A DNA stretch of 12,312 bases, taken from contig JADLEN010000296.1 in NCBI GenBank assembly GCA_020846105.1, positions 1-12,312 of the forward strand, written 5' to 3'. Made by a program: the position numbers and the translations under genes. The notes beneath the pieces are model-generated. The model was not told the origin of the DNA. It worked only from the letters and a program-made list of their open reading frames with translations, and made no database searches. Source of the DNA: Chitinophagaceae bacterium. Its GTDB lineage: Bacteria > Bacteroidota > Bacteroidia > Chitinophagales > Chitinophagaceae. Positions 6,664 to 9,660 of this stretch are shown piece after piece. Each line of letters begins with the position of its first letter. Position 1 is the stretch's first letter.

Positions 6664-7323
6664 ATGGCACGCACACCCATCTCCCGCATCTACCCCTACC
6701 GCGACGCCCAGCTTATCCAATTTGCCGATAGCCTCTGCAACAGCGCCGAGCGAGACGCCACCCAGCTACAAGCCTACGGCGTATCTGCCACCAACATAGC
6801 CGACATCCGTAGCGCCCGCGAAGCCTTTGCCAACTACCCCACCGACCAAGAGCTCTACGGCGACCTACTGCACACCGGCCAAGAGCGCGACACCCAAGCC
6901 AGCCTACTAGCCCAAGCCCTGCGCCAGATATGCACCCGCGCCCAGCTAGCCTACGGCAGCAGCAGCAGCGCCTACCGCCTATATCACCTCGGGCCCATAT
7001 CGGCCCTCAGCGCCCAAGAGCTCATCCGCGCCAGCCACTACATATGCCCACTAGCCCAGCAGCAGCTAGCCCAGCTAGCCCCCCAAGGCCTCACCGCCAC
7101 CATCATTGCAGACACCCAAGCCATAGCCACCACGCTAGACACACTCTTAGACACCGAGTTTAGCATCCAGCAGCAGCGCCAGGCCGCCACCCACCACCGT
7201 ATCGAGCTTGGCAACGCACTCTACATCCTACTCATCCCCATCTCCGAAAAAGGCAAACTCTGCTGGGCCTACACCAACGAAGCCCGCTACAACGACTACC
7301 TCCTAGTACCCTCCCAGCCCTAA
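6664..7323 (+). CDS. Uncharacterised helical protein (Bacteroidota-type hypothetical)
   Basis: The 219-residue product has no signal peptide or membrane segment and reads as mostly alpha-helical, rich in Ala, Gln and Leu. It opens with ARTPISRIYPYRDAQLIQFADSL, and later segments include LRQICTRAQLAYG (about 88-100), LSAQELIRASHYICPLAQQQLAQLAPQGLTATII (about 117-150) and LGNALYILLIPISEKGKLCWAY (about 181-202). The repeated pattern of long helices, each followed by a short TPxG- or PQGL-like turn, suggests an antiparallel helical bundle. I have an impression of similar multicopy hypothetical proteins of about 200 residues in Bacteroidota, but can assign no function. Codon choice is GC-rich with unusually many CTA leucine codons, which create clusters of CTAG. 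The ATG at 6664 is the first in frame after a candidate -7 element. A parS-like site begins at the base after its stop codon. Confidence 0.8.
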   Translation: MARTPISRIYPYRDAQLIQFADSLCNSAERDATQLQAYGVSATNIADIRSAREAFANYPTDQELYGDLLHTGQERDTQASLLAQALRQICTRAQLAYGSSSSAYRLYHLGPISALSAQELIRASHYICPLAQQQLAQLAPQGLTATIIADTQAIATTLDTLLDTEFSIQQQRQAATHHRIELGNALYILLIPISEKGKLCWAYTNEARYNDYLLVPSQP

Positions 7324-7339
7324 AGTTCCACGTGAAACA
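7324..7339 (+). promoter_or_regulatory. parS-like ParB-binding site 1
   Basis: AGTTCCACGTGAAACA matches the widely conserved parS consensus tGTTnCACGTGAAACa at all positions but the first (15 of 16 against the B. subtilis variant TGTTCCACGTGAAACA). It starts directly after the stop codon of the helical-protein gene. ParB-CTP clamps load at such sites and spread to organise and segregate the origin region. A second copy with the same 14-bp core lies inverted at 8172-8187. Confidence 0.8.
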
Positions 7340-7456
7340 TCCGCATGCCTTTCGTGGGCGTGCCGCCGCCCCATCATCAGCGCTTGCTAGGGGGCGGCGT
7401 CAGGCTATCCGTTCCTACTCCGCCCCAAGGCCCACGCCGCAAAGGCTTCAGCGGGG

Positions 7457-7655
7457 TATCCACTGCTATCCTTCACGCTTTCGTGGGTGCTAGCCCCTAG
7501 CGCAGCACAAAAACCTCCGTGCCATATGTAAACAACAGCACCGCTACGCAACACGCCAAATTCCCCTCCATCGGAGGGGTGTCCGCAGGACGGGGTGGTA
7601 GCTAAGCAGCGCCAAAAGCTAGCACCCACGAAAGCGTGAGGGATAGCAGCGGATA
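7457..7655. repeat. Long inverted repeat, 38-bp arms
   Basis: The left arm 7457-7494 and right arm 7618-7655 are reverse complements at 36 of 38 positions, with GCTAGCACCCACGAAAGCG at the inner side. The 123-bp interior contains the double hairpin at 7563-7591. No transposase frame lies inside, so an autonomous insertion sequence is excluded; a non-autonomous (MITE-like) or REP-type element is possible. No clear target-site duplication was found. Confidence 0.85.
7563..7591. repeat. Double-hairpin palindromic unit
   Basis: CCCCTCC (7563-7569) pairs with GGAGGGG (7573-7579) around ATC, and GTCC (7581-7584) pairs with GGAC (7588-7591) around GCA. A following CGGGGTGG could pair with CCCCTCC instead, giving two alternative folds. 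It resembles dispersed palindromic units that I associate with Bacteroidota intergenic regions; this comparison is from memory only. Confidence 0.65.
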
Positions 7656-7778
7656 TCCTTTTGCCTTTTTCAGGCAAAAGATAGCAGCGGATAGCCCGGC
7701 CACGCCGCAGAGCCTTGGCAGCAAGGCTAGGCGTGGGCACGCCCCAATTATTCACTTATCATTATTCATTATTAGCCT

Positions 7779-7786
7779 TACCTTTG
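7779..7786 (+). promoter_or_regulatory. Candidate -7 element for mnmG, giving a leaderless or near-leaderless transcript
   Basis: TACCTTTG matches TAnnTTTG exactly, with TTA in place of TTG at a 20-base spacing upstream (7756-7758). The box ends only 5 bases before the mnmG ATG at 7792. Transcription would therefore start at or within a base or two of the start codon. Confidence 0.5.
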
Positions 7787-7791
7787 CCCCT

Positions 7792-9660
7792 ATGTTTCCA
7801 CAGTACGACGTGATAGTAGTAGGCGCAGGCCATGCCGGATGCGAGGCCGCAGCCGCCGCCGCCAACATGGGCAGCAAGGTATTGCTCATCACCATGAATA
7901 TGCAAACCATAGCACAGATGAGCTGCAACCCCGCAATGGGCGGCATAGCCAAAGGCCAGATAGTGCGCGAGATAGATGCCCTTGGCGGCTACTCCGGCAT
8001 AGTAAGCGACAAGAGTATGATACAATGGCGCATGCTGAACAAGAGCAAAGGCCCCGGCATGTGGAGCCCCCGCACCCAAAACGATAAGATGCTTTTTGCC
8101 AATACCTGGCGCGAGATGCTAGAGGCCACCCCCAATGTAGATTTTTGGCAAGACATGGTCACAAGCCTCATAGTTTCACGTGGAACAATAGAAGGAGTAA
8201 TCACAGGCATGGGCCAAGAAATACGTGCCAAAGCAGTGGTGCTCACCAATGGCACCTTCCTCAATGGCGTGATACACGTAGGCGAAAAACAGTTTGGCGG
8301 CGGCCGCATGGGCGAGAGCAAAGCCACGGGCATCACCGAAGAGCTGGTAGCCCTAGGCTTCGAAACCGACAGACTAAAGACCGGCACACCACCCCGTGTA
8401 GATGGCCGCAGCCTAGACTATAGCAAGATGGAGATACAAGCCCCAGACGAAGATATCGTGGGCTTCTCGTACTTGCCCATAGAGCGCATCAAGCCGCAAC
8501 AGCAACGCCATTGCTGGATAGCCTATACCAACCAAGAAGTGCACGACATCCTAAAGACGGGTTTCGACCGCTCGCCCATGTATGCCGGCCGCATAGAAGG
8601 TAGCGGCCCTAGGTATTGCCCCAGTATAGAAGACAAGATAAGTAGGTTTGCGGAGCGCGATAGGCATCAGCTTTTTGTAGAGCCAGAGGGTTTCAACACG
8701 GTAGAGATTTATGTAAACGGCTTCAGCACATCGCTACCCGAAGAGGTGCAACACGCAGCACTGCGCAAAGTACCTGGCTTCGAAAACTGTAAATTCTTCC
8801 GCCCCGGCTATGCTATAGAGTACGATTATTTTCCCCCCACCCAACTGCAATACACGCTCGAAACCAAATTGGTAAAGAACCTTTTCTTTGCCGGACAGAT
8901 AAATGGCACCACCGGATACGAAGAAGCGGCTTGCCAAGGATTGATGGCGGGCATCAACGCGCACAACAATGCGCACGGAAAAGAACCCTTTTCGCTAAGC
9001 CGTAGTGATGCCTATATTGGTGTGCTCATAGACGACCTTATAAACAAAGGCACCGACGAGCCTTATAGAATGTTTACGAGCCGCGCAGAATTCCGCACGC
9101 TACTAAGGCAAGACAATGCCGATTTTCGCCTTACCCAAAAAGGCTACGACTTGGGCATTGCCAGCCAAGAGCGCTTGGATAATATGTTGCAGAAAAAAGC
9201 AGAAGTAGAAAAAATAAAAAAGGTGTTGCAAGAATGTAGCATCGGCCCCGAAATGATACATGACTTTTTAGTGTCGAAAAACTCGGCACCCCTCACCGAA
9301 AAAACAAGGGCTTACAAAATATTGCTTCGCCCAAATATCAATATCGAAGAATTGGTGGCAAATATACCCCAACTTAAAGCCGAAATTGGGAGCTTAAACC
9401 CACTGAGCCTACAGCAAGCAGAAATACAAGCCAAGTACGACGTTTATATCGAAAAAGAGCGCGAATTGGCCCTAAAAATGAGCAGTTTGGAGGATTTGAT
9501 TATCCCAGACAGCTTTTCTTACGACAAATTGAATGCCTTGAGCAGCGAAGCCCGCCAAAAGCTAGAAAAGATAAAACCTAAGACCTTGGGGCAAGCAAGC
9601 CGCATTTCGGGCGTGAACCCGAGCGATGTGCAAATATTGATGGTGTTTATGGGCAGATAG
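7792..9660 (+). CDS. mnmG: tRNA uridine 5-carboxymethylaminomethyl modification enzyme MnmG (GidA)
   Basis: MnmG is the FAD-binding partner of MnmE; together they install the (carboxymethyl)aminomethyl group on uridine 34 of several tRNAs, using methylenetetrahydrofolate and NADH. The 622-residue length is normal. YDVIVVGAGHAGCEAA near the start holds the GAGHAG dinucleotide-binding loop (11-16). CNPAMGG contains the conserved Cys45, and GPRYCPSIEDK contains the second conserved Cys (276), both in active-site motifs. GGRMGESKATG, RLKTGTPPRVDG, FFAGQINGTTGYEEAA and YRMFTSRAEFR are further family signatures, and the helical C-terminal domain ends normally. The ATG at 7792 is chosen because the frame upstream, open to 7636, runs through repeats and adds non-homologous residues. 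A parS-like site is embedded at 8172-8187, in a weakly conserved stretch coding V-S-R-G-T. The 5' three quarters is GC-richer than the 3' end. Confidence 0.98.
   Translation: MFPQYDVIVVGAGHAGCEAAAAAANMGSKVLLITMNMQTIAQMSCNPAMGGIAKGQIVREIDALGGYSGIVSDKSMIQWRMLNKSKGPGMWSPRTQNDKMLFANTWREMLEATPNVDFWQDMVTSLIVSRGTIEGVITGMGQEIRAKAVVLTNGTFLNGVIHVGEKQFGGGRMGESKATGITEELVALGFETDRLKTGTPPRVDGRSLDYSKMEIQAPDEDIVGFSYLPIERIKPQQQRHCWIAYTNQEVHDILKTGFDRSPMYAGRIEGSGPRYCPSIEDKISRFAERDRHQLFVEPEGFNTVEIYVNGFSTSLPEEVQHAALRKVPGFENCKFFRPGYAIEYDYFPPTQLQYTLETKLVKNLFFAGQINGTTGYEEAACQGLMAGINAHNNAHGKEPFSLSRSDAYIGVLIDDLINKGTDEPYRMFTSRAEFRTLLRQDNADFRLTQKGYDLGIASQERLDNMLQKKAEVEKIKKVLQECSIGPEMIHDFLVSKNSAPLTEKTRAYKILLRPNINIEELVANIPQLKAEIGSLNPLSLQQAEIQAKYDVYIEKERELALKMSSLEDLIIPDSFSYDKLNALSSEARQKLEKIKPKTLGQASRISGVNPSDVQILMVFMGR
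8172..8187 (-). promoter_or_regulatory. parS-like ParB-binding site 2, inside mnmG
   Basis: Read on the minus strand this is TGTTCCACGTGAAACT, matching the B. subtilis-type parS TGTTCCACGTGAAACA at 15 of 16 positions. It is inverted relative to the site at 7324-7339, 833 bp away, and shares the 14-bp core GTTCCACGTGAAAC. Here it codes for Val-Ser-Arg-Gly-Thr in MnmG. parS sites inside coding genes are known in other bacteria. Confidence 0.78.

Follow-up and report, generated by a model that had tools for sequence, protein, structure and literature searches.

In many phyla other than the Bacteroidota, parAB adjoins gidAB near the origin. Chromosomal ParABS systems of the Bacillus subtilis, Caulobacter and Pseudomonas type are the closest described counterparts of the locus analysed here, which resembles them in the parS core motif, the few clustered copies, the position at the skew-defined origin and, in two relatives, the parS-type recognition residues of ParB. 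It departs from them in the location of parB, which is separated from the parS cluster by 0.7–1.8 Mb in the four relatives examined. Sites within coding sequences have a precedent in P. aeruginosa PAO1, where nine of the ten parS are most likely located in genes according to the available text of PMC4368675, and our locus shares this placement. What sets it apart from PAO1 is an orthologous dual-coding site that can be traced across a clade, together with its effect on the residues of the host protein, an analysis of a kind that the same portion of PMC4368675 does not contain. In gut bacteria, Bacteroides caecimuris included, parS clusters and GC skew mark the origin with no systematic correlation with dnaA (PMC10197239, available text); the origin away from dnaA in the four relatives sampled here is similar, whereas the available part of that paper makes no mention of a link to mnmG or of an intragenic site.

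Intragenic parS as such is already known; what is added here is the depth of conservation and a visible mark on the protein sequence. Among the titles and abstract openings covered, none describes parS in mnmG of Bacteroidota; the survey of Livny et al. 2007, reportedly the main one for parS, lies outside that scope, and hence we make no claim of priority. We suggest that the two parS-like sites described below are chromosomal parS, that is, ParB-CTP loading sites of a ParABS system near the origin, one upstream of mnmG and one embedded in it as a dual-coding element (probability about 0.93). This would be a clean natural case in which a putative chromosome-segregation site imposes residues on an enzyme unrelated to segregation, and the view of the dual-coding site as a special case of an ordinary class of element is well supported.

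Two parS-like sites at mnmG

The window, the whole 12,312-nucleotide stretch of DNA that was analysed, is one contig of a 1.9-Mb Chitinophagaceae draft genome (358 contigs, 73% complete). Judged by MnmG, Taibaiella- and Flavipsychrobacter-like Chitinophagaceae are among its closest named relatives, alongside many Bacteroidetes drafts. The features of interest are as follows.

6664–7323: ORF of 219 aa, its stop codon touching the upstream parS-like site
7324–7339, plus strand: parS-like site 1 (core 7325–7338, GTTCCACGTGAAAC), intergenic, upstream of mnmG and directly 3' of the stop of the 219-aa ORF
7792–9660, plus strand: mnmG (gidA), tRNA uridine-5-carboxymethylaminomethyl modification enzyme, 622 aa (Pfam GIDA, 4.2e-162; PDB relatives 3cp8 and 3ces)
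8172–8187, minus strand: parS-like site 2 (core 8173–8186), inside mnmG codons 128–132, reading GTTTCACGTGGAAC on the plus strand
8173–8187, plus strand: mnmG codons 128–132, GTT TCA CGT GGA ACA (V-S-R-G-T), a predicted beta-hairpin turn, doubling as putative parS

Both sites are real. The original prediction of two 16-mers with a shared 14-bp core is borne out by AGTTCCACGTGAAACA at 7324–7339 and AGTTTCACGTGGAACA at 8172–8187, whose cores are exact reverse complements of each other with 834 bp between them. The claimed match at 15 of 16 positions holds for the parS consensus TGTTNCACGTGAAACA, the same consensus as quoted in the available text of PMC10197239, while the strict form TGTTTCACGTGAAACA gives two mismatches for each 16-mer; both cores fit the pattern GTTYCACGTGRAAC exactly. 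One copy does abut a stop codon, as the TAA of the 219-aa ORF immediately precedes position 7324. The estimate that a given 14-mer would turn up about once in 10^4 such windows was also right (2 x 12312 / 4^14 = 9e-5). A scan of the window allowing up to three mismatches to TGTTNCACGTGAAACA returned five matches against 0.18 expected, four of them being the two near-palindromic sites, each read on both strands.

Across the entire draft genome, these two sites, both on one contig, are the only ones with at most one mismatch to TGTTNCACGTGAAACA; allowing two mismatches adds a single further place (C269:5432, two mismatches). A reversed control pattern gave 2 and 4 matches in the draft at the loose level, compared with 3 and 2 for the real pattern, and zero matches to its exact core. 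Since the control matches as many places at two mismatches, such matches are meaningless, and only those with one mismatch carry weight. That the sites are not spread over the genome is also seen in LGM1 (CP075895.1, a complete genome), where all three sites with at most one mismatch fall within 1.3 kb at mnmG. The inverted arrangement that had been predicted is present in the window but is not conserved: orientation and the 848-bp spacing both vary among relatives, and the two were rejected as functional features.

Sites beside mnmG across related genomes

Most of the genomes compared have mnmG as the gene flanking their parS sites. The exact core GTTNCACGTGNAAC was found in 50 of the 59 genomes of the order set (own genome included), mostly in one to four copies, against 10 of 59, with one copy each, for the reversed control. 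At class level (50 genomes, including our own and G019 of the same family), GTTYCACGTGRAAC was found in 46 and a matching control pattern in one. Such counts speak against the sites being chance matches or relics of shared ancestry with no function. The lack of exact sites by mnmG in some genomes and the own genome being no richer than the control at two mismatches would fit that explanation, but it would also have to accommodate sites that coincide with the skew switch in four chromosomes and codons that stay invariant despite wide synonymous divergence (both described below), and we give it practically no credence.

Exact sites within 2.5 kb of mnmG were seen in 46 of 56 order-set genomes with an mnmG locus (own included; eight others had one-mismatch sites only and two had none) and at 60 of 80 named mnmG loci (seven with one-mismatch sites only, 13 with none). 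The two sets overlap by at least five genomes. Within the same distance, the exact site was upstream of the gene in 42 of 56 and 57 of 80, respectively, the upstream flanks usually covering 1.5–2.8 kb in the order set and up to 4 kb at the named loci, less at contig ends. Of the 30 cases with no exact site near mnmG (10/56 and 20/80), half had one-mismatch sites only and the other 15 none, some of these loci ending at a contig end.

Among the class-level matches listed, 29 genomes were compared (G019 included), 15 more genomes with a match being outside the comparison; 26 of the 29 had a site closer to mnmG than 2 kb, and eight of these had sites on both sides of the gene. In the three exceptions, the site was at a distance of 43 kb, at 88 kb and on a different contig. 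Eight class-level loci were read: six have a downstream copy starting 2–10 bases past the end of the mnmG stop codon, one a copy that overlaps this codon, and one a copy 76 bases beyond it. Seven loci (L295 and L297–L302) carry exact parS on both sides of the gene, with the downstream copy 2–10 bases past the stop in five; in L299 it overlaps the stop and in L302 it is the copy 76 bases beyond it.

Over 99 loci, the median distance from the mnmG start codon back to the closest exact upstream site is 84 bp. This distance would be compatible with an operator, and so with the idea that the 14-mers are bound by another palindrome-reading regulator near the origin, such as a Noc-like factor or one acting on mnmG, and not by ParB. 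In other families, however, the sites are found a few bases past the mnmG stop or 0.6–1.7 kb downstream, and the core is itself the established parS motif (consensus in the available text of PMC10197239); the remaining evidence on this point comes from ParB.

Two deviating arrangements were noted. Upstream of mnmG in L290 and G048 (L141), repeated one-mismatch sites, GTTCCACGGGGAAC, replace the usual core, possibly reflecting a shifted ParB specificity. Contig C24 of G092 carries seven parS cores ~99 bp apart at 13203–13809 in an array-like fashion, and mnmG of that genome is on another contig.

Position of the origin

Our own genome being a fragmented draft, the origin position was read from four relatives by sampled GC skew. 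In all four chromosomes (G023, G027, G019 and LGM1), the sites are located where the skew switches from negative to positive, in agreement with the predicted proximity to the skew minimum. In G023 (a single 4.9-Mb contig), all ten skew samples up to 2.2 Mb were negative and eight of ten later ones positive, and in a finer 200-kb scan the cumulative skew was lowest at 2.385 Mb, which is 13 kb away from the sites (2.3716 Mb). A fine scan of G027 (3.3 Mb) brought the minimum (0.638 Mb) to within 7 kb of the sites (0.6313 Mb). The interval of the switch in G019, 1.288–1.430 Mb, includes mnmG (1.348 Mb). The skew of LGM1, one of the genomes with the internal site, changes sign from 0.12 to 0.15 Mb and the sites are at 0.153 Mb, in a profile that is noisy (-0.002 at 0.42 Mb, -0.041 at 0.80 Mb, slightly positive at 0 and 3.2 Mb).

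The clustering, the association with mnmG and the position at the skew switch together point to a ParB loading zone near oriC as the most likely identity of this region, and the original prediction of such a zone is supported by the motif, by its clustering at mnmG and by the skew of the four relatives. One correction to the original picture concerns dnaA and parB, both of which lie away from the origin in the four chromosomes examined: dnaA and parB are at 4.32 and 4.21 Mb in G023, 2.54 and 3.24 Mb in G027, 0.92 and 2.08 Mb in G019, and 0.74 and 1.02 Mb in LGM1, respectively. An origin at dnaA was rejected for these chromosomes, in which dnaA is about 0.43–1.9 Mb from the sites. In practical terms, parS beside mnmG marked the skew-defined origin in four chromosomes, while dnaA and parB did not. 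With the parS–mnmG neighbourhood present in most of the class-level genomes compared (among the matches listed), this marker could help to orient draft genomes.

ParB and its recognition residues

No parB was detected in our 73%-complete draft with the PF02195 profile, and the ParB of G031 as a query gave a best E-value of 0.223. Among 58 relatives, 56 gave a ParB_N match, including all five genomes of the same genus, and incompleteness of the draft is therefore the likely reason for the missing gene. The two relatives with no match to the ParB_N profile are G048, which lacks an exact site, and G042, which is 100% complete and carries two exact parS cores upstream of mnmG, a case that tells against the ParABS reading.

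In G031 and LGM1, parB follows a ParA-like ORF, named from its Walker-type N-terminus, which we take for parA. The recognition region of both ParB proteins reads KK[ED]RSTVTNY...K...GHAR. In the available text of PMC7383237, a crystal-structure paper, the specificity residues are R173 and G201 for the parS type and Q173 and R201 for Noc, position 184 varies among ParB proteins, and Noc sites differ from parS at half-site positions 1 and 6. With numbering by motif register from that text and by PDB alignments, as opposed to direct alignment with Caulobacter ParB, the proteins of G031 and LGM1 have Arg at 173 and Gly at 201, which is the parS type and not the Noc type (Gln, Arg), and Lys at 184. 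Such parS-type residues in two relatives, like the two half-site positions that distinguish Noc sites from the cores found here, speak against a different regulator, which we consider very improbable, and in favour of ParB as the protein that would bind the sites.

A parS-like site within the mnmG reading frame

A set of 136 mnmG rows was reduced to 130 distinct genes by leaving out one short gene (G051) and five duplicates. Chosen by amino acids alone, 38 of the 130 MnmG proteins have VSR[GE]T at codons 128–132, and the DNA of all 38 contains an exact parS core there (35 GTTTCACGTGGAAC and three GTTTCACGTGAAAC), at an offset of 381 from the mnmG start (378 in L247). Among 242 conserved degenerate codons, no others vary as little as these five, whose entropies are 0, 0, 0, 0 and 0.18 bits compared with a mean of 1.75; the fifth is ACA in 37 genes and ACC in one. 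At common residues with four- or sixfold degeneracy, the median codon identity between pairs of site-bearing genes is only 31%, so that synonymous positions are otherwise well scrambled. Whether the internal site is kept in related species beyond codon-level constraint had been put forward as a check on the original prediction, and the answer is strongly positive.

The reverse dependence, in which protein-level constraint on MnmG alone keeps the stretch and the parS match simply follows from the amino acids, could draw on the encoded residues being nearly as uniform within the clade as the DNA. But many codon combinations encode the same five residues, and given the codon usage of these genes the chance of one gene using just these codons is ~5e-4, yet the core is there in 38 of 38. 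In addition, the remaining 92 genes show a freely varying turn, with VKDGR (13) and IKDGR (7) as the most frequent among varied forms, and G006 differs in four of the five codons, two of the changes being silent (TCC, GGC) and two altering the residue (VSDGA). We therefore find protein constraint as the sole cause very improbable and keep to a site that would be maintained as DNA.

The protein nevertheless seems to have a say in which variant is used. On the mnmG strand, the fourth letter of the core may be T (TCA, Ser) or C (CCA, Pro); it is T in 38/38 internal sites vs 12/46 upstream sites of the same genomes (Fisher p 1e-13, a value that overstates the evidence as the rows are related). This contrast suggests that the protein selects among permitted parS variants while the DNA fixes the residues. 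An AlphaFold2 model places the site residues at a beta-hairpin turn between strands 123–129 and 132–138; it was used only locally around residue 128, with a pLDDT of 81 for residues 121–130 and 87 for 131–140 against a whole-model mean of 62.8. Insertions of seven residues occur right after the intact internal site in G002 and L225.

Origin and maintenance of the internal site

According to the mechanism that we propose, ParB-CTP clamps would load at the parS sites beside and inside mnmG, loaded ParB would spread along the origin region, and ParA would move the sister origins apart. The internal site would then be centromere DNA and the codons of the MnmG beta-hairpin turn at once, V-S-R-G-T or V-S-R-E-T having presumably replaced turns such as VKDGR in this lineage. 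Selection on the DNA for its role in segregation would have held the site since its origin, with the protein admitting only those parS variants that do not place a proline there.

The trait needs three changes in free trees built without the site columns, and two in a scenario of one gain and one loss. Besides the site clade and G006, a single stray row accounts for the third change: L278 when all 130 rows are used, and G016, on a long branch, in the tree of 66. G006 falls within the clade as the sister of Taibaiella lutea and reads GTT TCC GAT GGC GCA (VSDGA), with three exact sites upstream of the gene; its state looks like a loss, and at least in this genome the internal site is dispensable. 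When the 22 site rows and G006 were held together in the 66-row set, the arrangement was not rejected (p-AU 0.794) and was likelier than the free tree. One gain and one loss is the simplest reading of these trees, and the internal site most likely has a single origin, in the ancestor of the Taibaiella/Flavipsychrobacter-like lineage. The genomes of G016 and G025 have no exact parS core besides the internal one, and the best centromere site of these chromosomes would consequently be mnmG coding sequence. One record with an internal site, L221, comes from a contig titled Azovibrio restrictus (Pseudomonadota); since its mnmG falls within the Bacteroidota clade in the tree, a wrong label or contamination is probable.

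Exact sites inside mnmG also occur at other codons, three out of four of them in frame 0. In other families, a frame-0 site lies at offset 1476 in L295 and L296 (G066 and G080; VPRGT and VSRET), and L153 (G057) has sites at offset 1424, in another frame, and at 1518 (VSRET, frame 0). These placements suggest that mnmG coding sequence was captured by parS more than once. A stronger formulation, on which our judgement is evenly divided, would be that a centromere element became fixed in the mnmG reading frame, overwrote the turn and froze both for as long as a multi-genus lineage has existed, with mnmG being taken over more than once. Capture of this kind perhaps keeps the centromere and an origin-proximal gene inseparable.

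Surroundings of the upstream site

The 219-aa ORF that ends immediately before the upstream site has no Pfam match, and it was rejected as a conserved neighbour, with no relative of it in the 41 mnmG loci compared. Between the upstream site and mnmG lies a stretch (7386–7713) with a 53-nt inverted repeat (arms 7454–7506 and 7606–7658, 85% complementary) and further repeats, the core motif of which was not found in the compared loci other than those of the window's own contig. The distance from the upstream site to mnmG is 71–98 bp in three genomes of the same genus (G003, G004 and G005) against 467 bp in the window, and by this comparison 7386–7713 looks like an inserted repeat element.
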